This document shows, one piece after another, positions 2,943 through 21,013 of a DNA stretch of 64,000 bases. Numbering within the stretch: the first letter of the stretch is position 1; every line of letters begins with the position of its first letter. A program made the position numbers and the translations under genes. The DNA comes from Methylophaga sp. UBA2689 (GTDB lineage: Bacteria > Pseudomonadota > Gammaproteobacteria > Nitrosococcales > Methylophagaceae): contig DELT01000099.1 of NCBI GenBank assembly GCA_002354555.1, positions 10,660-74,659 of the forward strand, given 5' to 3'. Below the pieces are notes generated by a model. That model was not told the DNA's origin. It did not search any database and was given only the letters and a program-made list of their open reading frames with translations.

Positions 2943-5009
2943 CTAACGTAAATTATTTACTAAATTAATCAGATTTTTATAACCTTCTTCTATCTCTTCG
3001 AATGCAATCATTGCCGACGTTATGTCACCACACTGATGCAGAACATGTGTATTAGCGATTGAGTTTAATAGCGTTGTATAGTGGTTTTCCAATTGCCCCA
3101 GCAGGTGTGCTTCGATAAATTGAATGCTCTTTGCCTTTTTCAACCAAAATCCGCAATGACTATGTGCTGAGACAATTAATGGAAAATTACTATTGGTTTT
3201 AGCGTGGATATTGTTTTTTAAAAATTCATGCTCTATTTCGAGAAAATGTATAAATAATCTGAGTTGGGAAGTTTTTAAGGAATCATTTTTCTTATTTTCA
3301 ATAACAATCAGTTCTTGTATGGAAAAATTGCAAGCCCATTCCAATACACTTTCTGCTGGCATTGGTCGCGCGATAGCATAACCCTGTGCAATTTTACACC
3401 CCATACATAAAAGAATCTGAGCGTGTTTAAACGACTCAACGCCTTCAGCAATAACTTCGATGTTAAATGAGTTGGCAAGAGAAATGACACTTTCGACAAT
3501 TTTATAGTCATCTGCATCATTGAGCATATTCCGAACAAAAGATTGATCTATCTTGATAGTTTTTATGGGAAGTGTTCTTATGTGGCTAAGCGAAGAATAT
3601 CCTGTTCCAAAATCATCCAAAGCCATTGAGATATCTAATTTTTCCTTACATTCAGCAATAACAGTCTGAATTGAAGATAATTCATCAAGCGCATGGCTCT
3701 CCAGTATTTCAATTTGAAAAAAACTCAAATCAAGTCCGGGAAACTCATTACATATTATCTCCAGACTTTTTATAAATGAGCTTCTTGCAAGATGATAAGC
3801 AGACAGATTGACACTTACACGTAGTTTTAATCCATAGTTATGCCAAGTCGAAAGACATTTCAAAGCTTCTTTTATCACATACTGTCCCAGCAAAACCTCG
3901 ACATCGGACTCATTTATTGAAGGCAAAAACTCAATTGGCGATAAAAGACCCTTTGAAGGATGCTGCCAACGGACCAACGCTTCAAAACCAATTATTTCGC
4001 CGGATGTCATATCTATCTTGGGCTGAAAGAACAATCGCAACTGCTCTTCGTTTATCGCTGATAAGACTTCAACATGGCTGAAAGAACTTTTTGAGACTTC
4101 TTTTACTTTTTCAGTATCTCCATACATTAAAAATGCTGATTTACCTGCATTTTTTATCTGATAAAGAGTTTGATCAGCGTGTTCAATCAGAGAATCCAGA
4201 GATCCTTTATCGAAAGGATACAGCGTGTAGCCAATCGAAGCCCCTATATATATTTTATGTCCATCAACAAGATCATAAGGTTGACTCACTGTATTTAATA
4301 GTTTTTGGAGTATTCCATCACAATCCGACCGGCTATGAATCTCACTCAATAAAATGACAAACTCATCACCGCCATATCTCGATATTGTATCTTCCTGTCT
4401 AAGCTGGGATTTTATTCTATCGGCCAACTCAACCAGAAGCTGATCTCCAATGTTATGGCCATAAGTATCATTTACTGGTTTGAAGTCATCCAGGTCCAAA
4501 AAGCAAACCGCCAACATTTCATGATTTCGATTTGCTTTAGCAACAGCCTGATTAAACCGATCTCCCAGCAAGTGCCTGTTAGGTAACCCGGTAAGTGCAT
4601 CGTAATGGGCTAATTTTTCAAGACTTGTGTGATGTTCTTTCATTTTGGTTATATCAGACATCATTCCCAAATAATGCACAGTGTCAGTACCCGGTATGTT
4701 GACTTTATTTACACTTAAAAGCTCTGCATAGAAAGTTCCGTCTTTTTTTCTATTCCATACTTCACCTTCCCAACGCCCATTTTCTTCAATAGTCAGCCAC
4801 ATGTCCTTATAAAAGTTTTTATCCTGCCGACCGGAGCTTAGAATACTCGGGTTGTTTCCAATCAATTCTTGTTCTGTAAAACCGCTTATCCGACAAAAAG
4901 CATCATTACAAACAAGAATGCGAGCTTTATCATCGGTAATAATCATGCCTTCCTGAGCCTTGTTAAATAGCTCCATCAACAGAAAATCTAGATTGCTTAA
5001 ATCAAACAT
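2943..5009 (-). CDS. PAS-GGDEF-EAL protein with C-terminal CZB-like zinc domain
   Basis: Predicted cytoplasmic bifunctional c-di-GMP enzyme of 688 aa. PAS with PAC at about 10-130; GGDEF at about 135-300 with RYGGDEF near 213 and an RxxD inhibitory site (RQED); EAL at about 320-560 with the catalytic set kept (EALVRW, NLSAYHL, EILES, ALDDFGTG, IKIDQSF, EGVES). The last 120 residues contain HSHCGFWLKK and further spaced His, resembling the chemoreceptor zinc-binding (CZB) domain. There are no membrane segments. The start lies 36 bases after the chemoreceptor stop, so the two are probably co-transcribed. It closely matches the protein at 47264-49420 in domain order and wording. Which activity dominates cannot be read from sequence; Zn2+ control is inferred. 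Confidence 0.88.
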   Translation of the reverse strand: MFDLSNLDFLLMELFNKAQEGMIITDDKARILVCNDAFCRISGFTEQELIGNNPSILSSGRQDKNFYKDMWLTIEENGRWEGEVWNRKKDGTFYAELLSVNKVNIPGTDTVHYLGMMSDITKMKEHHTSLEKLAHYDALTGLPNRHLLGDRFNQAVAKANRNHEMLAVCFLDLDDFKPVNDTYGHNIGDQLLVELADRIKSQLRQEDTISRYGGDEFVILLSEIHSRSDCDGILQKLLNTVSQPYDLVDGHKIYIGASIGYTLYPFDKGSLDSLIEHADQTLYQIKNAGKSAFLMYGDTEKVKEVSKSSFSHVEVLSAINEEQLRLFFQPKIDMTSGEIIGFEALVRWQHPSKGLLSPIEFLPSINESDVEVLLGQYVIKEALKCLSTWHNYGLKLRVSVNLSAYHLARSSFIKSLEIICNEFPGLDLSFFQIEILESHALDELSSIQTVIAECKEKLDISMALDDFGTGYSSLSHIRTLPIKTIKIDQSFVRNMLNDADDYKIVESVISLANSFNIEVIAEGVESFKHAQILLCMGCKIAQGYAIARPMPAESVLEWACNFSIQELIVIENKKNDSLKTSQLRLFIHFLEIEHEFLKNNIHAKTNSNFPLIVSAHSHCGFWLKKAKSIQFIEAHLLGQLENHYTTLLNSIANTHVLHQCGDITSAMIAFEEIEEGYKNLINLVNNLR

Positions 5010-8074: not shown

Positions 8075-10795
8075 ATGAAGAAAGCTATTTATTTGTATTG
8101 TGATATAAAAAAAAGTATTTCCAAACTGCCACTATTGTTTATACCTTTTTTGGTGATAGTGGTAGGTTCTGGTTTTTCCTTGGCACAATATCATCAAGTT
8201 AAAAGCCGTAATCAGCAGGTGATCGCTGATCGCTTTGCTATATCGTTTAACGAAATCACCCAAAGCATTACTGAAAAAGTCCGCAGCTACGAACAGATGT
8301 TACGGGCGACTCAGGGATTATTTGAATCCTCAAAAATTATTACCCGCTCAGAATTCCGAAATTACGCTGAAAAACTCCGGCTGGAAGCTTTTTATCCCGG
8401 GATTCAGGGATTGGGATATGTACCACTGATCACACCTGAAGAAAAATCTGCTCATATCGAAATGGTCCGTCAATCAGGATTTCCTGACTACAACATTTAT
8501 CCTGAAGGTGAACGGCAAGTTTATACAAGCATTTTGTATCTTGAACCATTTGAGACACGTAATCTTCGGGCGTTTGGTTTTGATATGTATTCTGAAACCA
8601 CACGGCGTGCGGCCATGATGGAAGCGCTTCAAAGTGGCAACACCGCGCTCTCTGGAGGGGTAAAACTTGTTCAGGACAATCCCGAAGAACCCGTAACGGG
8701 ATTGCTTATGTACCTGCCATTATTTGAATCAAATGCCTCTGAAAAAATCCATACTGGCTGGGTTTATGCTGTATTTCGAATAAATGACGTGATCAATGCT
8801 TCATTAACGCAAAATGGCATATTTAGCCATATGCAGATAACAGATGTGACCGATGGCACGCAGGATGTGCTGTTTCAGTCCAGTCAATTTCAAACTAATA
8901 CTTTTGAATTAAGTGAGACATATACTCTGGCAGGTCGGCAGTGGAAAGTAACCGCCTATCCCGATAAAGCATTCATAAAAGCCTTCGAAAAACAGTCAGC
9001 AACTGCATTGTTTTTTTTAGAATTGTTAATGACATTTTTAATTGCTTTTATATTCTGGTTATTAGCAAGTGGTCGTGTAAGAGCAGAAAACAGGGCAAAC
9101 GAAATAACCCAATCCCTGAAAGAAAAGCACTTAAAGCTGCAGCTGGCAACAGATACCGCTGGCATGGGTACCTGGGAATGGAATTTTCAGCGCCAGATAG
9201 TGTTAGTAGATGAGCATCAATTAAGCATTTTTGGCGAGAAGGAACATGCCAATCAGTCTCTTAGTCTCGAAGACTGGTTTTCCCGATTTGAAGAAACTGA
9301 TCGTCAGCGGGTGGAAATGGCATTTGAGCGAAGCAAAGCAAATGGTGATGATCTCAATATTCAGGCTTTGGTACAGGCTGGTAACGAGACCCGAATGGTA
9401 CAACTCAAGACGGCCATTAATTTCGAGGCTTCAGGCCTGGCAACAGGCATGATAGGTATTTGTTTTGATATTACTGACAGCTGGCTTTATCAGACACAAC
9501 TTGAACAAACTGAAGCACGTTGGAAACATGCGCTGGAAGGTAGTGGCGAAGGCGTATGGGACTGGTCAATTATCGATGACAAAGTGCTTTTTTCGGAAAA
9601 ACTGATTTCCATGCTGGGATATACACCAGATGAATTTTCTCCTCATGTCAGCGAATGGTCAGATCGTATTCATCCAGATGATCGTCAACAGGTATTCAGC
9701 GATATTGATGCGTTGCTGGATGGCAGCCAACCTGAGTACCGAAATGAACACCGTATGCTGTGTAAAGATGGTAGCTGGAAATGGATTCTGGATCGTGGCA
9801 CGGTGGTTGACCGTGATGAGCAGGGCAATCCACTCAGAGCTATTGGTACTCATACCGACATCAGTGGACGAAAAGCAATCGAAATCAATCTGCGTATCAG
9901 TGAAGAACGCTTCCGTAATGCCTTTGATACAGCTGCTATCGGGATGGCACTGGTTGGTCTGGATGGGAGCTGGCTGGAGGCAAACCCAGCCTGTTGCGAA
10001 ATGCTTGGTTACAGCGAAGGTGAATTATTACAAATGACCTTTATGGATGTGACACATCCTGAAGATCTCGATGTCGATAAACATTTTGTCGATCAGCTTA
10101 TTGCCGGTGAAATTGATCACTATCAGATGGAAAAGCGTTATATATGCAAAAATCATCAACTAATTGATGTATTACTCAGCGTCTCGGTGGTTCATGACAT
10201 AAATGGGGATCTGCTGCATTTTGTCTCACAAATAGAAGATATTACCGCCAGAAAACACGAACATGAATTAATGCGAAAAATGGCGCTTTATGATGCCTTG
10301 ACCGGCTTACCAAATCGCCGTTTGTTTGACGAGCGGATGAATCAGGCAATACTCGGTGCAAAACGAAATAAACATCCGCTGGCCCTGATGTTTATTGATG
10401 TCGATCATTTTAAGCAAATCAATGATACCTACGGGCATGATGTTGGGGATCAAGTGATAAAACGCGTAGCAGAAACCATGCTGTCAGCATTAAGAGCGAC
10501 GGATACACTTGCTCGATTTGGTGGTGATGAATTCGTCGTCTTACTGAACAAAGTAAGTTCTCCCGAAGCTGCGGTAAAAGTGGCTGAACACTTGCGCAAG
10601 AGTCTGGAAAACCACCTTGTATTTGGGGATATTCGGTTATTGATCACTTTGAGTATCGGCATTGCAGCCTACTTACCCGAAACGAATGAAACTCCCCTTC
10701 AGCTTATGAAAAAGGCCGATATGGCGCTTTATGATGTCAAAGCTCGTGGCCGTGATGGTGTCGGTATATTCCAGACGGGTGGATTTGAAAAATAA
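8075..10795 (+). CDS. CHASE-PAS(x3)-GGDEF membrane diguanylate cyclase
   Basis: Predicted inner-membrane diguanylate cyclase (2 GTP to c-di-GMP), 906 aa. TM1 at about 17-37; periplasmic CHASE domain at about 75-230 (QGLGYVPLITPEEK, LEPFETRNLRAFGFDMYSE); TM2 at about 308-332; three PAS/PAC repeats at about 345-470, 485-605 and 612-735; GGDEF from about 745 with RFGGDEF near 813 and an RxxD I-site (RATD). No EAL domain. It aligns over its full length with the minus-strand protein at 55107-57851, including shared PAS phrases (EGVWDW/GAGVWDW, NEHRMLCKDGSWKWIL, RFRNAFDTAAIGMA), so the two are paralogues. CHASE ligands are generally small molecules; none can be named here. Confidence 0.92.
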   Translation: MKKAIYLYCDIKKSISKLPLLFIPFLVIVVGSGFSLAQYHQVKSRNQQVIADRFAISFNEITQSITEKVRSYEQMLRATQGLFESSKIITRSEFRNYAEKLRLEAFYPGIQGLGYVPLITPEEKSAHIEMVRQSGFPDYNIYPEGERQVYTSILYLEPFETRNLRAFGFDMYSETTRRAAMMEALQSGNTALSGGVKLVQDNPEEPVTGLLMYLPLFESNASEKIHTGWVYAVFRINDVINASLTQNGIFSHMQITDVTDGTQDVLFQSSQFQTNTFELSETYTLAGRQWKVTAYPDKAFIKAFEKQSATALFFLELLMTFLIAFIFWLLASGRVRAENRANEITQSLKEKHLKLQLATDTAGMGTWEWNFQRQIVLVDEHQLSIFGEKEHANQSLSLEDWFSRFEETDRQRVEMAFERSKANGDDLNIQALVQAGNETRMVQLKTAINFEASGLATGMIGICFDITDSWLYQTQLEQTEARWKHALEGSGEGVWDWSIIDDKVLFSEKLISMLGYTPDEFSPHVSEWSDRIHPDDRQQVFSDIDALLDGSQPEYRNEHRMLCKDGSWKWILDRGTVVDRDEQGNPLRAIGTHTDISGRKAIEINLRISEERFRNAFDTAAIGMALVGLDGSWLEANPACCEMLGYSEGELLQMTFMDVTHPEDLDVDKHFVDQLIAGEIDHYQMEKRYICKNHQLIDVLLSVSVVHDINGDLLHFVSQIEDITARKHEHELMRKMALYDALTGLPNRRLFDERMNQAILGAKRNKHPLALMFIDVDHFKQINDTYGHDVGDQVIKRVAETMLSALRATDTLARFGGDEFVVLLNKVSSPEAAVKVAEHLRKSLENHLVFGDIRLLITLSIGIAAYLPETNETPLQLMKKADMALYDVKARGRDGVGIFQTGGFEK

Positions 10796-12341: not shown

Positions 12342-13007
12342 TTGAAATTCACAAACCTATTAATTGTGAGCATAGGCCTCGCCACATTAACTCAGACATT
12401 AACAGCCAGAGCAGAGTCCATTTCTTTGAAAATAGTTGATCAACAACAACAGGCTGTTTCCAGTGCGGTAATTGAGGTATTGAGTTCGCCCGAAAGCTTT
12501 GGTCAAGTAGATTCAATCAATGTTATCGATCAGATAGATAAGATGTTTGTCCCTGAGCAAATTGTTATTCAACAAGGTCAGGCAGTTGATTTTCCCAATA
12601 GCGACAATATACGCCATCACGTTTATTCATTTTCTGAAGCTAAAACGTTTGAACTCAAGCTCTATGCCGACAAACCGGAAAAGCCAATCCAATTTGAAAA
12701 GCCCGGTGTGGTTGTAGTGGGCTGTAACATTCACGACACAATGATTGGCTACATTTATATCGCACAACACCAAACGGTTGTGACGTCCTCTGATCAAGGT
12801 TACGCAAAATTTAATGCAACCGAGCAGAATCCCCGGATAAGTGTCTGGCATCCCTATACGACTGATGGTGCCGAAAGTCGTCAGTATTTTGAAATAGATC
12901 AGCTTGAACAAAATGATAAAGGTGAGCACATAGTCCAGTTGGACATTGCGCCCCCACCTCCGCGTGAGTCATTTGAGGATACCTTTGGTGCGCCTGGGCA
13001 TCACTAA
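12342..13007 (+). CDS. Exported cupredoxin-like protein (methylamine-utilisation type)
   Basis: Periplasmic single-domain copper protein candidate of 221 aa. It begins with a Sec signal peptide (about 1-25, ending TARA). The cupredoxin domain (about 55-150) shows the expected type I copper ligands: His in NIRHHVYSF and the C-x2-H-x2-M pattern in GCNIHDTMIGY. A C-terminal extension of about 70 residues follows. Proteins of this family are often labelled methylamine utilization protein without proven function. The start is TTG at 12342, the only one that keeps the signal peptide. The end overlaps the EAL gene by 20 bases, so translational coupling is likely. The neighbours suggest a role with the DUF3034 and globin lipoproteins. 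Confidence 0.82.
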   Translation: MKFTNLLIVSIGLATLTQTLTARAESISLKIVDQQQQAVSSAVIEVLSSPESFGQVDSINVIDQIDKMFVPEQIVIQQGQAVDFPNSDNIRHHVYSFSEAKTFELKLYADKPEKPIQFEKPGVVVVGCNIHDTMIGYIYIAQHQTVVTSSDQGYAKFNATEQNPRISVWHPYTTDGAESRQYFEIDQLEQNDKGEHIVQLDIAPPPPRESFEDTFGAPGHH

Positions 13008-15339
13008 ATTACGCACGCAAATTCTGCTATTTGCGCTTTCACTGGTTCTGGTGACCACAATGGTCATTCAGGCTATTTCGTGGTGGTCTGCCAACCAGTT
13101 TAATCAGCAACAGATTCAGCAAAATACCATTAAGGCTGAAAATATTCTGCGTCAATACATTCGCTCAACAGAAAAAAATCTGGTGAATTCGGCACAGGTA
13201 CTGACGGCAGACTTTGGTTTTAAACAAGCGGTGGCTTCCGGCGACAAAGATACTATCGCCAGCGTATTAATGAATCATGGTGCACGAATCAATGCTGATT
13301 TAATGTTGTTGACGGATCTATCCGGTAAGCTGATCTCCAGTAGTCATTCGATCATTAACGATGAGGCCCTACTGAGCTATGTAGTTAAAGATTTACTGGA
13401 AAAACCTGCCATTGCTCATATTGTGATGCTGGACGACCGGGTTTATGAGCTCATCCTGTTACCAATAATGGCCCCCAGAACCATTGCCTATACGTTAGTA
13501 GGATTTGAGCTGAATCAGACAAACCTTAATGAGCTCAAACAACTCACCGGTCTGGACATAACCCTGCTTAAACATTCAGTTCCGGTTTATTCCACACTGG
13601 AAAATATTTCAAATGATTCAGAATTTATAGAGACGATAAATTCAGCTCACACAGAATGGTTTTGGATGGAAAGACCTACATTTATCAATTCTGATTTTAT
13701 GCCAGTGACCACCAGCATAAACCCTGTCAGCATTCTTTTATCAGCTGACTTAAGACCCACCTATCAACAATATGATGAGATGTCTGGGCGCATCATCCTG
13801 ATAGTCTTATTGGTGATGTTGGTTTCCATCATCATCAGCACCATCATTGCACATACCTTAACCACCCCGCTCGCTAAACTGGTCGGCATCGCCAACCAGT
13901 TTGCCAAAGGAAATTACGATGCCTGGCAGGAACCCGGCCAGGCCAGTAGTGAAATCCGTGATTTAGCTGCTGCCCTCAGAACCATGGGGTCAGAAGTTAA
14001 ACAGCGTGAACAGGTTGTGACATGGCAGGCCAGACATGATGCATTGACCGGTTTATTCAATATCCACACCATGCGAAGCACACTTTCAGCAACAATGCAG
14101 GAATATGGTCAATGTATTGTAGTGGCGACGTATATTCAAAATTTCCGACAGATAAATGATCGGCTTGGGCCTGAAGTTGCCGATGCCTGCCTCACTGTTC
14201 TGGCTCAACGACTTAACCAGTTTGCTACAGCTGGAGAAAAAACCAATGCACGTCTGGAAGGAATCGAGTTTCTATCCGTTATTCAATTGCTGCCTGGACA
14301 AAGTCCTAAACAGGTTGTTGAAGCATTGCTTAATAACCTGGATAAGCCCTTTCAAATTGGTAATATCAGTTTAAGCGCTCATTTTTATGCTGGGGTGTGT
14401 TGCTATCCAGCCGATGGATATGACAGTAAAACGATGCTTCGTCGAGTCAGAATTGCTGCTGATCATGCTCGCCTGAATCGTACAACCATACATGTCTATA
14501 TGCCCGGTGAAGACGAAAATCATCTAGAAGAATTAAGCCTTATTGAAGCGCTTCAAGCACTGTTGAGACAACCGACTAATATTGAATTATTTTTAAACTT
14601 CCAGCCTAAGGTTGAGCTTAAAAATGGCAAAATGGAAACCGTAGAAACTCTTATACGCTGGCATCGTCCAGGCTTAGGCCGAGTTGCACCTGATAAATTT
14701 ATCGGCTTGGCCGAACAGTCCGGTCTGATCGTTGAGTTAACCCACTGGGTTATCAAACAGACACTCAAGCAGTTAAGCGATTGGCGGGAAAATGGATTGG
14801 CATTAAATGCTGCCATTAATGTGTCGGCAGAGGATTTGGCGCATCCGGATTTTTGTCAATTTCTGGACACACAGATTGAGTTTTACAATATTCCCGCCAG
14901 CTCGGTCACGATCGAGATCACCGAACGCGATATCATGTACGATGAAGCGCTGGGTATCGAGGTACTTAAAACCTTAAAAAAATCCGGCTATATGATTGCT
15001 GTAGATGATTACGGAATAGGTCAGTCATCATTATCGAAATTAAAAATCCTACCTGTCGATGAACTCAAACTGGATATGAGTTTTATTCGCAATCTCGATA
15101 GTTCTACAACGGATCAAAAAATTGTTCGATCCACTATCTATCTGGCCCATTCATTGGGGTTAAAGGTGGTGGCTGAAGGTGTTGAAAATGCTGCGACCTA
15201 CTCTATTCTGCTGGAAATGGGCTGTGATAGTGTTCAAGGCTATTTAATAAGTAAACCTCGGGATGCTGAAGATCTCGTTGCTTGGTTAGGTGAAAATAAT
15301 GCGACTTATTCTTTTTCTGCTGACAGTATCACTCACTAG
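12988..15339 (+). CDS. Membrane sensor, HAMP, degenerate GGDEF and intact EAL protein
   Basis: Predicted c-di-GMP phosphodiesterase of 783 aa in the inner membrane. TM1 at about 7-28, periplasmic sensor at about 30-265, TM2 at about 268-290, HAMP at about 290-345, GGDEF-like domain at about 355-510, EAL at about 525-775. The GGDEF signature is EGIEF and the RxxD site is missing, so cyclase activity is unlikely. EAL catalytic residues are retained (ETLIRW, INVSAED, EITERD, VDDYGIG, LKLDMSF, EGVEN). I chose GTG 12988, 8 bases after TGAGGA; it gives RLGITKLRTQILL, matching the N-terminus of the convergent GGDEF protein at 16552-17997, with which it shares the sensor. TTG 12985 is an alternative, and the open frame extends further up. 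It overlaps both neighbours. Confidence 0.87.
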   Translation: MRLGITKLRTQILLFALSLVLVTTMVIQAISWWSANQFNQQQIQQNTIKAENILRQYIRSTEKNLVNSAQVLTADFGFKQAVASGDKDTIASVLMNHGARINADLMLLTDLSGKLISSSHSIINDEALLSYVVKDLLEKPAIAHIVMLDDRVYELILLPIMAPRTIAYTLVGFELNQTNLNELKQLTGLDITLLKHSVPVYSTLENISNDSEFIETINSAHTEWFWMERPTFINSDFMPVTTSINPVSILLSADLRPTYQQYDEMSGRIILIVLLVMLVSIIISTIIAHTLTTPLAKLVGIANQFAKGNYDAWQEPGQASSEIRDLAAALRTMGSEVKQREQVVTWQARHDALTGLFNIHTMRSTLSATMQEYGQCIVVATYIQNFRQINDRLGPEVADACLTVLAQRLNQFATAGEKTNARLEGIEFLSVIQLLPGQSPKQVVEALLNNLDKPFQIGNISLSAHFYAGVCCYPADGYDSKTMLRRVRIAADHARLNRTTIHVYMPGEDENHLEELSLIEALQALLRQPTNIELFLNFQPKVELKNGKMETVETLIRWHRPGLGRVAPDKFIGLAEQSGLIVELTHWVIKQTLKQLSDWRENGLALNAAINVSAEDLAHPDFCQFLDTQIEFYNIPASSVTIEITERDIMYDEALGIEVLKTLKKSGYMIAVDDYGIGQSSLSKLKILPVDELKLDMSFIRNLDSSTTDQKIVRSTIYLAHSLGLKVVAEGVENAATYSILLEMGCDSVQGYLISKPRDAEDLVAWLGENNATYSFSADSITH

Positions 15340-16129
15340 TCAGCTTTTCGCCGCAGATGGCAAGTTGATCGCCACGCCCGGCATTTCCCAAATTGAAGGG
15401 ACCGGCGGTGGCGGTTTTGTACCGTGGGCTCAATTAGCCGGTTATGGCAGTCGAGATGAAATAGCCGCCAATGTATTTTGTAGTGGTGCGAATGTGGATG
15501 ACTATGATTTACGTGTCTGCGGCGCTCAGGCGACTTTCTATGACCGAATTGAATTCTCAGTTGCCAAGCAAAAATTTCATGTTGATGCCTTAGACCTCGA
15601 TATCAAACAACGTGTATTGGGTGTCAAAGCCAGACTTTATGGCGATATTGTCTATAGTCAATTTCCGCAGATAAGCCTGGGGATCCAGCATAAAAAACTT
15701 GACGATCCTACTGTCGCCTATTTGTTGGGCGCAGATGATGATTCCGGAACCGATATTTATCTGGCTGCCAGTAAACTGCATCTTGGTGCAATTGCCGGGT
15801 ATAACTGGCTATGGAATGTAACGGCCCGTTCTACAGAAGCCAATCAGACCGGCTTATTAGGTTTTGGTGATGCAGCACATGGAAGTCAGCGTGAAATTGT
15901 CCTTGAAGCATCCACAGCTATACTATTTGGTCGCCATTTAGCCCTTGGTGTTGAATATCGCCAAAAACCCGATAATCTTGCTTTAAAAGAAGATGACTGG
16001 TCTAACGTGTTTGTGGCCTGGTTTCCCAATAAGGTTATAAGTGTCACGGCCGCCTGGCTTGATCTGGGTGAAATTGCTGGCGCCAAAAACCAGAAAGGGG
16101 CTTATTTTTCTGTGACAGGTTACTTTTGA
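15299..16129 (+). CDS. DUF3034 family protein, probable outer-membrane barrel
   Basis: Exported protein of 276 aa that I recognise as DUF3034 style: signal peptide (LILFLLTVSLTSQLFAADG), then ISQIEGTGGGGFVPWAQLAGYG, alternating beta-rich segments and a terminal aromatic (VTGYF), as in outer-membrane beta-barrels. The function of the family is unknown to me. ATG 15299 is preceded by TAGGTG; an in-frame GTG at 15290 is the alternative. The gene begins 41 bases inside the EAL gene and its stop overlaps the start of the globin gene (TGATG), so expression as one translationally coupled unit is very likely. Confidence 0.8.
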   Translation: MRLILFLLTVSLTSQLFAADGKLIATPGISQIEGTGGGGFVPWAQLAGYGSRDEIAANVFCSGANVDDYDLRVCGAQATFYDRIEFSVAKQKFHVDALDLDIKQRVLGVKARLYGDIVYSQFPQISLGIQHKKLDDPTVAYLLGADDDSGTDIYLAASKLHLGAIAGYNWLWNVTARSTEANQTGLLGFGDAAHGSQREIVLEASTAILFGRHLALGVEYRQKPDNLALKEDDWSNVFVAWFPNKVISVTAAWLDLGEIAGAKNQKGAYFSVTGYF

Positions 16130-16557
16130 TGTTAGCGAAATTCCAATATAGCTTTTTGATGGCTTGCTGCCTGATATTAACCGCTTGTGCTAGTACTTCA
16201 GAATCCACGCTCTACAATAAACTGGGTGGTGAGCAAGGTGTGAATAATATTGTTGAAAACCTCATCCAGCAAATTGGTCAGGATGAGCAGATTTTCCATT
16301 ATTTCGCCGAAGCCCGCGTCAGCCGATTCCGTGAAAATCTCATCGAACACTTTTGTGCGATCTCTGACGGCCCCTGCCAATATACCGGTGACAATATGGC
16401 CGATATCCATACTGGTATGAATATCAATGAAAGCGATTTTAATCATTTGGTGGATTTATTGATTAATGCCATGGATGCTGAAGGAATACCTCACCGTGTT
16501 CAAAATCAGCTGCTTGCTCGTCTGGCACCATTGCGTGAAAACATTATCTATCTATGA
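16129..16557 (+). CDS. Lipoprotein group 1 truncated haemoglobin
   Basis: Small haem protein of 142 aa of the truncated globin (trHbN-like) family, here with an N-terminal lipoprotein signal (LILTACAS, Cys at about 23), so it should be anchored in the periplasm rather than be cytosolic. Globin segments seen: LYNKLGGEQGVNNIVENL, FRENLIEHFCAISDGPCQYTG and the proximal-His region MADIHTGMNI. The family binds O2 and NO; a role in NO detoxification or sensing is inference. The B-helix position usually holding Tyr is not obvious (IVENLIQQI). Its stop overlaps by 6 bases with that of the convergent GGDEF gene. ATG overlaps the preceding TGA; RBS function probably comes from coupling. Confidence 0.88.
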   Translation: MLAKFQYSFLMACCLILTACASTSESTLYNKLGGEQGVNNIVENLIQQIGQDEQIFHYFAEARVSRFRENLIEHFCAISDGPCQYTGDNMADIHTGMNINESDFNHLVDLLINAMDAEGIPHRVQNQLLARLAPLRENIIYL

Positions 16558-17997
16558 TTCAACTTTATCGTCAATATCAGATTCTACAACCGGAAAAGCA
16601 GGAACATGGGTAAAAATCACCTGATTACGGCCATGATTCTTTGCTTTATATAACGCCGTATCGGCCGTATGCAAAATCACATCCATCGGTGGCACAGCCT
16701 CTTCAGGCCGTAGCAGGCAAACACCACAACTCATCGTCACCGGAATTAACCGGGAACCACTCGGGATGGGATCATCCGCTATAACTGATCTTAATCTTTC
16801 AAAAGATGCTGTTGCCTCTTCAGGTTTTAATTGCAAAGCGACCAAAAACTCTTCCCCTCCAAAGCGTCCCAATACATCATAGCTTCGCAAAGTGGATTTC
16901 AGGCGTTTTGCAAAGCGGCGCAGTACCTCGTCGCCTGCAGCATGACCATAGGTATCATTTATCTTTTTGAAATTATCTATATCGCATAATGCGACGCAAT
17001 AAATTTTATCACTACGAGTTGAGCGTGCGAGTTCTTCAGTGATTCGTTCGATAGCAGCATGACGATTAAGAATGGACGTTAAATGATCATGAGTTGCTCG
17101 GTAAATCAAATCCTTGTATAGATGAGAAAGTGGATTTGCCAGACGTCTGGCCAGCAAAGTGCTGAGCACCACACTGATTATCACAATAAATAACGTTAAA
17201 CCCAGCAGAGAATAATTCAGTCGATCAAAAACCTGATAAAAAATGGATAAATCTGCCAACAAAAATAATTGTATTTGCTGGTCATTAACGCTTTTTAACT
17301 TGACCTCTTCCAATAAGAATTGGGATCTTTGCCACCACAAATCAGGCACATTCGTTTTTTGTAGAAGACGGTCGAACTCAGCTTTATGAATTTGCAGGGT
17401 AGTTAAAAAGAAATCTGTCTGGTTAGATTCAAACACAATATCCAACCCGGTTTTGAGCTTTAATTCTTCCAGTAAGGGTGCATTTATTTCAAACGCGATA
17501 ATACTGATAGCGACTTGATGCGGTGCATTGATGGGTAAGCTGAATAAACGATACAAACGATTATTTATTTCCACAAACTGACCCTGCTGGCTGATGCCAT
17601 TAAACGCCAGCCAATTGATATCGGCCATATCAGAAAGTGGGAAATCCAATTCATTCGCTGCAATCAGCTCACCATTATCACTGACCACCAACATCAAATC
17701 TGCCTGAATCCGTCCAGCATGGTTAGTAAGCATGCTGGTAATGGTAGGAACATCATTGGTCGCAACAGCTTGTCTGAAACCAAAATCCTGGATAATAACT
17801 CTGGTTGCGTAACGTAGATTCGTCTCACGGCTGTCAATGTACTGATGCAGAAAATAGGAGGCATTTGCCACCTGTTCATGAATTTGCTGCTGATTATGTT
17901 TATGAATAAACCAACCATGGCTCAGCTGCATGGCAAACGCCGTCAGTAAAATAAGACTGACACAAAGTAGAATCACCCTGGTTCGGATGCTATTCAT
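16552..17997 (-). CDS. Membrane diguanylate cyclase
   Basis: GGDEF protein of 481 aa that makes c-di-GMP. TM1 at about 5-27, periplasmic sensor at about 30-250, TM2 at about 258-282, GGDEF from about 300 with RFGGEEF near 379 and RSYD as I-site. The sensor half is clearly homologous to that of the EAL protein at 12988-15339: compare DFGFRQAVATNDVPTITSML with DFGFKQAVASGDKDTIASVL, both followed by ADLM. The cyclase and the phosphodiesterase therefore probably perceive the same signal with opposite outputs. It is convergent with and overlaps the globin gene by 6 bases. No HAMP is evident between TM2 and GGDEF. Confidence 0.9.
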   Translation of the reverse strand: MNSIRTRVILLCVSLILLTAFAMQLSHGWFIHKHNQQQIHEQVANASYFLHQYIDSRETNLRYATRVIIQDFGFRQAVATNDVPTITSMLTNHAGRIQADLMLVVSDNGELIAANELDFPLSDMADINWLAFNGISQQGQFVEINNRLYRLFSLPINAPHQVAISIIAFEINAPLLEELKLKTGLDIVFESNQTDFFLTTLQIHKAEFDRLLQKTNVPDLWWQRSQFLLEEVKLKSVNDQQIQLFLLADLSIFYQVFDRLNYSLLGLTLFIVIISVVLSTLLARRLANPLSHLYKDLIYRATHDHLTSILNRHAAIERITEELARSTRSDKIYCVALCDIDNFKKINDTYGHAAGDEVLRRFAKRLKSTLRSYDVLGRFGGEEFLVALQLKPEEATASFERLRSVIADDPIPSGSRLIPVTMSCGVCLLRPEEAVPPMDVILHTADTALYKAKNHGRNQVIFTHVPAFPVVESDIDDKVES

Positions 17998-18076: not shown

Positions 18077-19828
18077 TCAGGGTAGACTCCAGGCCCTGAT
18101 TTTCTGTCCGGTTTTAAAACCAAACAGACGATTGCCACCCACAGCGACAGCAATATACTGTTTACCATTAACACTGTAGGTAATGGGTGGCGCATTGACG
18201 CCCGCTTCAGTTTTACCGCTCCAGCGTTTTTCTCCCGAATCAGCATCAAAGGCCATCAGTTCACCACTCCCTTCTCCGGTAAACACCAGACCACTGGCTG
18301 TACTTAAAACGCCGCCTATTAATGGATTTTCAGTTTTGACCTGCCAGACTATTTCCCCACTATCCAAATCAATTGCAGTTAATAAACCATGTTTTTCAGG
18401 AGTATTTAACGGAGACATTGAAGAATAACGCACCGCTTCTTCTCCATCCTTGGCGGCCTGTTTGTGTAATTTATATTCCACCGGCCAGTGAATGGCGGCA
18501 ATAAATACCAAACGTCTGCGAGCATCCACTGAAACGGGAGACCAGTTTGCCCCGCCCATTACACCAGGATAAATAACCGTGCCTTCGCTGCTGGGAAGTT
18601 CAAACATGTTTTTTTGCGGGACAAAGGCTTCACTTTTATAGAGAAACTTACCATTTCGTCTATCATGCACATAAAACCAGCCGGTTTTACCGGCTTGCCC
18701 AATGGCGGGGGTAGGTTTTCCCTGGATTGTAATATCAAATAAAACCGGGGGACTAGCCACATCGTATCCCCAGCTGTCATGGGGGACTTGTTGATAATGC
18801 CAGCGATAATCTCCACTGTTGGCATCAAGTGCCAGTAGTGAACTGCTGTAAAGATTATCTCCTGGTCTGGATGAGCCTTCCATTTGCGGTGAAGGATTAC
18901 CAGTACCAAAATGCAGGATGCCAGTGTAAGGATCGATAACTGGCGTACTCCATGCCGAAGCACCACCATAGCGCCAGGCGTCGCTATGCTGTTCCAGCGA
19001 GGCTTTTTCCTTTGCAATATCGCGCGGTAATTTCACCCCATCAGCGGTTTTGGTAACAAAATCACCTTCCCAGTTTTCAGCCTTGATGGTATCAAACTGC
19101 CATTTCTGTTTACCGGTTTCAATATCATAGCCAGCCATGAAACCGCGTCGACCATATTTCCCGGCTATCCCGACGACAGCGCCCAAAGGTGAATCAGAGT
19201 CTGTAGCATCAAGATGTAAACCATATCCCACACCAGTAATACCAATAATGACTGTATCCTGATAAATCATCGGTGCCATATTGATACCCGCTCCGGAGGT
19301 GCCGGATACACTGCCCAATTCCGTATCGTCGAGCGTGCTGACATCTTCCTGAATACCACTGTTTTCATCAACAACACGATTATCCCAGCGTTTTTCGCCT
19401 GTTTTGGCATCCAGTGCAATCAGTCTGGCATCAATAGTGCCGGTCAAAACCATTCCATTTGCAACAGCCACACCGCGATTCGCAGGACCACAACAAATGG
19501 GATAATCTTCATCTAAATCATGTTCGTAGCGCCATAACTGATTACCTGTCGCAGCGTCCAGCGCAACCACATCATTAAATGGCAAGGAAACATACATCAC
19601 ACCATCCTGAACCACCGGTGTCGCCTGGAAAGTCTCATTTACACCGGTATCAAACTCCCATGCTTCAACCAGCCCCATAACATTACTTTTGTTAATCTGC
19701 GTCAGCTTACTGTGCCGTTGGTGCAGATTATCACCACCGTAAACGGGCCACTCAATCTCTTTTGCTAAAACTGGCAGGGATAATATAGTTAAAAGCCCCC
19801 CCAACCAGATGACGTGTTTTAAAGGCAT
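18077..19828 (-). CDS. PQQ-dependent quinoprotein dehydrogenase
   Basis: Periplasmic 8-bladed propeller dehydrogenase of the quinoprotein alcohol dehydrogenase family, 583 aa, with a cleavable signal peptide (LGGLLTILSLPVLAKE). Tryptophan-docking repeats (DAATGNQLWRY, DAKTGEKRWDN, DADSGEKRWSG), the vicinal disulphide CC in CCGPANRGVA and the active-site region GTGNPSPQ...RPGDNLYSSSLLALD are visible. It oxidises an alcohol and passes electrons to a c-type cytochrome or azurin; the substrate cannot be told. It carries no fused haem domain (no CxxCH), so an external acceptor is needed. It is divergent from the di-haem peroxidase gene across 186 bases. No PQQ biosynthesis genes occur in the window. 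Confidence 0.92.
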   Translation of the reverse strand: MPLKHVIWLGGLLTILSLPVLAKEIEWPVYGGDNLHQRHSKLTQINKSNVMGLVEAWEFDTGVNETFQATPVVQDGVMYVSLPFNDVVALDAATGNQLWRYEHDLDEDYPICCGPANRGVAVANGMVLTGTIDARLIALDAKTGEKRWDNRVVDENSGIQEDVSTLDDTELGSVSGTSGAGINMAPMIYQDTVIIGITGVGYGLHLDATDSDSPLGAVVGIAGKYGRRGFMAGYDIETGKQKWQFDTIKAENWEGDFVTKTADGVKLPRDIAKEKASLEQHSDAWRYGGASAWSTPVIDPYTGILHFGTGNPSPQMEGSSRPGDNLYSSSLLALDANSGDYRWHYQQVPHDSWGYDVASPPVLFDITIQGKPTPAIGQAGKTGWFYVHDRRNGKFLYKSEAFVPQKNMFELPSSEGTVIYPGVMGGANWSPVSVDARRRLVFIAAIHWPVEYKLHKQAAKDGEEAVRYSSMSPLNTPEKHGLLTAIDLDSGEIVWQVKTENPLIGGVLSTASGLVFTGEGSGELMAFDADSGEKRWSGKTEAGVNAPPITYSVNGKQYIAVAVGGNRLFGFKTGQKIRAWSLP

Positions 19829-20014: not shown

Positions 20015-21013
20015 ATGTATAAAACACTACTGGTAGGACTTATAACGTTTTTAAATATATCCCCTGTGTTGGCAGATAATCTTAGAAACGAGCCCATCAA
20101 ACCGATAAAGCCGTTTATTATTACCGAACCCGCCAAAGTTGAACTCGGGAAAAAACTTTTTTTTGACCCCAGACTCTCCCGCTCGGGTTTCATATCCTGT
20201 AATTCCTGCCATAACCTCAGTATGGGTGGAAGTGATAACTTGCCGACTTCCATTGGTCATAATTGGCAGCAAGGCCCAATCAACTCTCCCACCGTACTCA
20301 ATTCCAGTATGAATCTGGCCCAGTTCTGGGATGGTCGGGCAGCCGATTTACAGGAACAGGCTGCCGGACCAATTGCTAATCCGATGGAAATGGCTTTTAG
20401 CCACTCTCTGGCCATTGATGTTTTGCGTTCGATTCCACAATACGTTGCTGCATTCAATGAAATCTATGGCAGCAATGAGATTACTCTGGATCAGGTTACC
20501 AATGCCATAGCGGCCTTTGAAGAAACCCTGGTCACTCCTAATTCTCGCTTTGATCTTTGGCTTAAAGGCAATGACAATGCTTTGACTGACACTGAAATTG
20601 CCGGTTATCAGAAATTTAAAGAAATCGGTTGTGTGGCCTGTCATAACGGGGCTGCTGTAGGTGGCAGTTCATTCCAGAAAATGGGGATTATGGAATCCTA
20701 CCAGACCGAAAACCCGGCTGAAGGACGTATTGCAGTGACCGGTAAAGATGCCGACCGCTTCTCCTTCAAAGTGCCAACTTTACGTAATGTTGAGTTGACC
20801 TACCCTTACTTCCATGACGGTGCCTATTGGAAACTGGAAGATGCCGTCGATGTGATGGCCAGACTGCAGCTGGGGCAGAAACTGGAAAAACAGGACATTC
20901 AAAACATAACTGCATTTTTGAAAACCTTGACGGGTGACCAACCCAAATTTGCCGTACCACAATTGCCACCGTCTACTGCTGACACACCAATTCCAGTTCC
21001 TTTTGAAGACTGA
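20015..21013 (+). CDS. Di-haem cytochrome c peroxidase
   Basis: Periplasmic peroxidase of the CcpA/MauG superfamily, 332 aa, reducing H2O2 with electrons from cytochrome c or azurin. Signal peptide of about 21 residues (ending VLADN), then two haem-c sites CNSCH (about 67) and CVACH (about 209), the region QFWDGRAADLQEQA, and the C-terminal KVPTLRNVELTYPYFHDGAYW. Length and order fit classical bacterial CCP rather than MauG. ATG 20015 follows GTGAGGTAAGTA. A candidate ANR box lies upstream. Together with the SrpA-type catalase nearby, it suggests peroxide defence in the periplasm. Confidence 0.94.
   Translation: MYKTLLVGLITFLNISPVLADNLRNEPIKPIKPFIITEPAKVELGKKLFFDPRLSRSGFISCNSCHNLSMGGSDNLPTSIGHNWQQGPINSPTVLNSSMNLAQFWDGRAADLQEQAAGPIANPMEMAFSHSLAIDVLRSIPQYVAAFNEIYGSNEITLDQVTNAIAAFEETLVTPNSRFDLWLKGNDNALTDTEIAGYQKFKEIGCVACHNGAAVGGSSFQKMGIMESYQTENPAEGRIAVTGKDADRFSFKVPTLRNVELTYPYFHDGAYWKLEDAVDVMARLQLGQKLEKQDIQNITAFLKTLTGDQPKFAVPQLPPSTADTPIPVPFED

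Follow-up and report, generated by a model that had tools for sequence, protein, structure and literature searches.

Cupredoxins paired with Cache receptors of exchangeable output: a candidate envelope sensor class, with an exported-globin version in Methylophaga

Judged from gene neighbourhoods, the conserved core of the locus studied here is a pair consisting of a predicted copper protein and a membrane receptor, and it is the output of this pair that is swapped, while a DUF3034 protein and a truncated haemoglobin are an add-on pair. The locus lies in a stretch of 64,000 nucleotides of Methylophaga sp. UBA2689 (contig DELT01000099.1), called the window below (Table 1). For its four same-strand genes we propose an envelope-spanning relay, in which the cupredoxin would be the input partner of a Cache receptor that hydrolyses c-di-GMP and would be fed by the barrel and the globin; we regard this reading as evenly poised. 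More tentatively, and with rather more doubt than confidence, the pair may represent a general class of envelope sensors, in which a periplasmic blue-copper protein would be the soluble ligand of Cache receptors and would give the same redox or copper input to receptors whose output is a c-di-GMP phosphodiesterase, a nucleotide cyclase, a Ser/Thr kinase or, in one case, a histidine kinase. The pair would work beside either of two unrelated outer-membrane barrels, and where the barrel is DUF3034 a haemoglobin with a disulfide would join it outside the cytoplasm.

The pairing was counted by a cupredoxin profile search of 369 class genomes and 383 phylum genomes, two samples that share some genomes. 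A threshold of at least 103 bits gave 30 and 55 places, corresponding to 78 distinct cupredoxin genes; two cupredoxin matches below 103 bits (L296 and L297) had no receptor match. A receptor with this Cache sensor was found within 2 kb of 67 of the 78 genes by a profile that was built partly from receptors it then counted, and a control with the window's own sensor as the single query found one in 59/78. Beyond 2 kb, 577 kb of flanks held one receptor only, which was the window's own GGDEF protein. Of the 67 receptors, 51 have EAL as their output (one is split), 7 a Ser/Thr kinase, 6 a class III cyclase and 1 a histidine kinase, with two unclassified, as assigned by small custom profiles and confirmed by Pfam for 7/7 kinases, the histidine kinase, 4/6 cyclases and part of the EAL proteins. 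Since the outputs differ across the same pair, the shared part should be the input, and this exchange of outputs behind one input pair is the strongest reason to suppose that the copper protein talks to the sensor.

Table 1. Features of the locus (window coordinates, except for the last row, which gives locus coordinates)
Feature	Position	Strand	Remark
Cupredoxin-domain protein with signal peptide, 221 aa	12342..13007	+	Predicted input partner
Cupredoxin domain, residues 57-142	12510..12767	+	Inserted in split beta-sandwich
Membrane receptor: periplasmic dCache-type sensor, HAMP-like linker, degenerate GGDEF, intact EAL	12988..15339	+	Alternative start 12946
dCache_3 match of EAL receptor	13135..13653	+	Pfam 43.1 bits, cut-off 25.7
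EAL domain of receptor	14557..15258	+	Pfam E 1.9e-69
DUF3034, predicted 12-strand outer-membrane beta-barrel, conserved Gly-rich N-terminal segment	15299..16129	+	Alternative start 15290
Group-1 truncated haemoglobin with lipoprotein signal	16129..16557	+	Pfam Bac_globin
Globin lipobox Cys20 (LTAC; Ala next)	16186..16188	+	Aligned Cys in 117/137 rows
Globin Cys76 to Cys83, predicted disulfide	16354..16377	+	136/137 rows each
Globin proximal haem ligand His94 (F8)	16408..16410	+	137/137 rows
Convergent predicted diguanylate cyclase, duplicate sensor (residues 1-293) and GGEEF domain with RxxD site	16552..17997	-	Genus-level addition
GGDEF domain of convergent cyclase	16621..17097	-	Pfam E 6.8e-43
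BRL examples	L273:4866-6164, L275:312-1574, L276:2371-3612, L279:6551-7777, L280:6877-8106

The globin follows DUF3034 closely in this census, being found within 6 kb in 36 of the 37 cupredoxin loci with DUF3034 and in 0 of the 41 others. Beside the cupredoxin in 17 of these 41 loci stands another family of about 412 aa with signal peptides, here called BRL, which looks like an outer-membrane barrel. It had no match in Pfam or NCBIfam, and a search of the sequences of solved structures gave one match only, Porin P (E 0.13). The idea that BRL is a distant DUF3034 was rejected (hhalign probability 0.4%), and in the 78 cupredoxin loci the barrel slot holds DUF3034 or BRL, never both. Against the pairing, for eleven of the 78 no receptor lies within 2 kb, although two of these eleven are within 2 kb of a contig end. 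Two of the eleven stand with DUF3034 and the globin. Five stand with BRL alone, so the copper protein may also act with the barrel independently of any receptor.

The initial annotation of the window had reported four same-strand genes with overlaps of 20, 41 and 1 bases, and a convergent GGDEF gene that overlaps the globin gene by 6 bases and carries the same type of sensor as the EAL receptor. The first statement was confirmed to the base and the second likewise proved correct. The four-gene cluster is probably one operon. In the named loci (see below) the three junctions overlap or touch in 50/64, 57/64 and 58/76 cases, counts that take the first possible start and thus overstate overlap. 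A scan for promoters and terminators gave no signal above shuffles. Two genes upstream, on the same strand, is a c-di-GMP protein with CHASE, PAS and GGDEF domains and an unrelated sensor (8075-10795), and phmmer matches show another EAL protein, which also has a GGDEF-like domain, at 2943-5009 (minus). A PQQ-dependent alcohol-dehydrogenase-like protein (18077-19828, minus) and a MauG-like di-haem peroxidase (20015-21013, plus) are encoded next to the unit. A gene of 580-583 aa follows the GGDEF gene in several relatives too.

DUF3034 was found in 17/58 relatives, 18/369 class genomes and 39/398 phylum genomes, the window's genome being counted each time. Gene neighbourhoods were read in 147 loci, and the counts refer to genes within 6 kb of DUF3034; the loci are interdependent, since some genomes are represented by both an anonymous and a named record. 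Among 15 loci of the genus and family, counted without the window itself and, because of contig ends, without G004 and the second match in G003, the globin was present in 15, the cupredoxin in 13, EAL in 14 and all four genes in 13, and the two loci without all four are near contig ends. By the initial annotation's own condition, its reading would have been refuted if the four genes did not stand together elsewhere. They do so in 30 of 38 phylum loci and in 68 of the 80 loci from named records (the 80 best of 552 confirmed matches), though in only 8 of 16 class loci. In the phylum sample, counted without the window and without the second, broken matches in G472 (L209), all 38 loci have the globin, on the same strand and within 300 bp, 32 have the cupredoxin and 31 EAL; in the other 6/38 DUF3034-globin loci no cupredoxin was found within 6 kb. 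The class count (18 genomes, leaving out the window and G245, a match of 37 positions) includes the globin in 11, the cupredoxin in 10 and EAL in 8 loci. In the named records the numbers are 79, 75 and 72, and these loci lean to close relatives because they are the best 80 of 552; among them are Pseudoalteromonas, Alteromonas, Colwellia, Marinomonas, Shewanella, Pseudomonas, Xanthomonas, Rheinheimera and one acidobacterial MAG.

The order of the cluster is variable. In six loci (L188, L194, L202, L204, L205 and L207) the cupredoxin-EAL pair is divergent from the DUF3034-globin pair, so that the link between the two pairs survives rearrangement. Five Marinomonas loci (L120, L130, L134, L137 and L138) keep the cupredoxin, DUF3034 and the globin without an EAL receptor next door, which speaks against the relay, as do the DUF3034-globin loci without a nearby cupredoxin. 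The five class loci without the globin are L055 and the distant DUF3034 relatives L063, L064, L065 and L066, and these four relatives also have no cupredoxin or EAL nearby; DUF3034 is broader than the cluster. L051 has a stop in the DUF3034 frame and a split EAL gene, which is a decayed copy or a sequencing error.

The products named by the initial annotation, namely an exported copper protein, a membrane phosphodiesterase, an outer-membrane-like DUF3034 protein and a lipoprotein globin, hold at the level of sequence or model. Residues were counted after removal of identical rows, in 137 rows for the globin, 124 for the cupredoxin and 115 for the receptor. The 221-aa protein is predicted to be a periplasmic type-1 copper protein: its model has a predicted cupredoxin fold, and the copper ligands His, Cys, His and Met are kept in 124/124, 123/124, 123/124 and 123/124 rows. 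The cupredoxin domain sits inside a split beta-sandwich (residues about 23-55 and 143-207) that resembles the SusC N-terminal extension domain. Plastocyanin, amicyanin and pseudoazurin share the fold and the His, Cys, His, Met site with it, but the window protein differs from them in being inserted in a second beta-sandwich, in its genetic tie to receptors and in matching no NCBIfam family. Relatives carry the database names 'methylamine utilization protein' or 'plastocyanin'. At E 0.001 the protein hit 0 NCBIfam families, hence no curated methylamine or amicyanin family, and Pfam gave no match. A role in methylamine metabolism, as read from the database name, was therefore rejected and the name taken as inherited annotation.

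In the receptor, nine EAL catalytic positions, which we take from RocR-type enzymes, are kept in 114 or 115 of the 115 rows, and by these residues the protein is predicted to hydrolyse c-di-GMP. Its HAMP match is just under the cut-off (23.9 bits, cut-off 25) and is above it in related receptors. The sensor of the convergent cyclase scores 22.3 for dCache_3 (gathering cut-off 25.7) and is 32% identical to the EAL sensor over 296 aligned columns; these two are the only copies of the sensor found in the window's genome, whose assembly is 91% complete. The GGEEF and RxxD motifs of the cyclase were read from its sequence, and we take GGEEF to be the cyclase motif and RxxD its site. A GGDEF protein with the same sensor stands beside the globin in 9/13 same-genus loci and in 0/2 same-family loci fetched. 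In a sensor tree of 67 rows (short search, SH-aLRT only), ten GGDEF sensors form one clade (support 99), which together with the twelve EAL sensors of the genus makes a 22-row set (support 96) with the same-family sensors outside, and the tree fixes no branching order inside this set. From this grouping, the duplication of the operon's sensor and its joining to the opposite output date from the base of the genus or later. The opposing c-di-GMP outputs proposed by the initial annotation fit the intact EAL residues and the cyclase motifs, but no locus outside Methylophaga showed such a cyclase, which is therefore no part of a general system; as a general component it was rejected, since with this sensor it occurs only in loci of the genus. 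In L167, L198 and L199 a convergent GGDEF gene without this sensor stands beside the globin, perhaps a parallel way of adding a cyclase.

DUF3034 is predicted from its model to be a 12-strand outer-membrane barrel with a FapF-type fold. FapF, KdgM/NanC and COG4313 barrels have about 6-12% identity to it in alignments, and its sole Pfam family is DUF3034. A function as an amyloid exporter was considered from the FapF-like fold, and a shared fold in a model shows no function. A sequence search with DUF3034 matched the entries Ika8 (E 6.3e-6) and Ika4 (E 0.0028). A DUF3034 protein of Methylophaga frappieri (P0021) is named 'Hypothetical protein in Cyanoglobin locus', which indicates that annotators had seen DUF3034 beside a globin; the name is presumably of SEED origin, and the phrase 'Cyanoglobin locus' was not found in the open-access literature searched.

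The globin is predicted to be exported. The lipobox Cys is followed by Asp in 0 of the 117 non-identical rows in which it aligns, and by the Lol rule a lipoprotein with no Asp after this Cys goes to the outer membrane, so we predict that the globin is anchored there. Most of the other 20/137 rows look like ordinary signal peptides by eye. Besides the invariant proximal His, CD1 Phe is found in 135 rows. The haem pocket is apolar, with Ile, Leu or Val at B10 in 132/137 rows (the rest T 2, M 2, N 1), F/L/V/I at E7 in 137/137 and L/F/I/M at E11 in 137/137; Tyr B10 and Gln E11 were found in 0/137, with the B10 and E11 positions placed on HbN alignments. The NO-dioxygenase mechanism of HbN-type globins needs both of these residues, and NO dioxygenation as the main job of the globin was rejected. 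The joint loss of Cys76 and Cys83 in L148, the one row without them, supports the predicted disulfide. In PMC11904497, SbHbN of Shewanella benthica (TrHbN-2) is similar to the cluster globins in its apolar B10, E7 and E11 and its proximal His at F8. Its two Cys, at E16 and F10, are described there as too far apart for a disulfide, whereas the cluster globins have the near-constant Cys76/Cys83 pair and a signal peptide or lipobox.

How the four proteins work together can be proposed as follows. The globin at the outer membrane would bind a small ligand (O2, NO or peroxide) or exchange electrons, the cupredoxin would carry the redox or ligand state across the periplasm and dock on the Cache domain, and this docking would change the EAL activity. 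In Methylophaga, the cyclase, with its duplicate of the sensor, would respond to that input too and give the opposite output. That electrons may pass from the globin to the cupredoxin is conjecture. The envelope gas/redox-sensing or NO-handling system of the initial annotation survives in this relay, our best explanation, as far as gas or redox sensing goes, with a chemistry that we infer; its more specific part, NO handling, is not specifically supported by the globin pocket. We rank the redox/gas relay first since almost every locus of the DUF3034 version has the globin; its main rival is copper sensing. Under copper sensing, which we consider unlikely, the cupredoxin would report copper to the Cache receptor by its apo or holo state, and the barrel and globin would serve copper or envelope redox homeostasis rather than gas sensing. 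Type-1 copper proteins usually carry electrons and one would not expect a copper sensor to include a globin, but the complete H/C/H/M site would suit this role, and CopA is over its cut-off in 14/15 DUF3034 genomes and in 4/9 others of the genus (Fisher p 0.015), a weak association uncorrected for relatedness and genome incompleteness and confounded within one genus. Moreover, a CHASE4 domain of P. aeruginosa PA14 is reported to bind copper (PMC13277305).

Envelope detoxification, which seems improbable, would have the globin and cupredoxin clear NO or peroxide as redox partners in the periplasm, with EAL only tuning biofilm alongside. It is in line with the two genes being neighbours at most of the phylum-sample and named DUF3034 loci (the latter being the best 80 of 552), and with the discussion of the S. 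benthica TrHbN-2 globin for oxidative stress in PMC11904497. This contrasts with the cupredoxin standing by receptors in globin-less loci (none of the 41 non-DUF3034 loci has a globin) and with the lack of Tyr B10 and Gln E11; in addition, NirK is not clearly linked (4/15 DUF3034 genomes and 0/9 others, p 0.26). Finally, the genes may be unrelated and kept together by operon inertia with no shared function, as gene overlaps and vertical descent keep clusters intact inside a genus. We think this very improbable, because the order was broken and rebuilt with the same partners in the six rearranged loci and output domains were swapped while the cupredoxin-receptor pair stayed.

Among known systems, YfiBNR (TpbB) of P. 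aeruginosa consists of a membrane-integral c-di-GMP enzyme, a small periplasmic regulator and an outer-membrane lipoprotein (PMC2837407, as far as its text was available). The cluster has a similar three-tier envelope layout, and both the sensor and an adjacent gene for a periplasmic partner are present in the window. It differs from YfiBNR in having a cupredoxin as the periplasmic part, a globin as the lipoprotein, a barrel and an EAL phosphodiesterase instead of a cyclase, and no protein of the window matched the YfiR or OmpA families in Pfam or NCBIfam. Similarly, PA2072 (IsmP) and PA0847 of P. aeruginosa are CHASE4 receptors with GGDEF-EAL domains, for which a response to iron, haem or copper is reported (PMC13277305). 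They likewise place a periplasmic sensor on c-di-GMP proteins, and several receptors of the cupredoxin loci also match CHASE4 in Pfam. On the other hand, PA2072 and PA0847 are described as binding their ligand directly, and the word cupredoxin is absent from the available text of that paper. No paper on the cluster was found in the open-access literature, a scope that most subscription journals lie outside of, and papers on Stenotrophomonas BtsD and on Fe-oxidising bacteria concern other things in the portions available. The proposed cupredoxin-Cache receptor sensor class is apparently new to the literature.

If the proposal is true, a copper protein normally seen as an electron carrier would be a receptor ligand, and bacteria would have in it an input that can be exchanged between several kinase and second-messenger outputs, with an exported haemoglobin sitting in the signalling path of the DUF3034 version. 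DUF3034, a set of exported truncated globins and the cupredoxins that wrongly bear the name 'methylamine utilization proteins' would then all have a role, in genera that include Pseudomonas, Shewanella, Pseudoalteromonas, Alteromonas and Xanthomonas (record titles among the matches listed). What the Cache receptors of c-di-GMP enzymes read would become directly testable with one purified protein pair.
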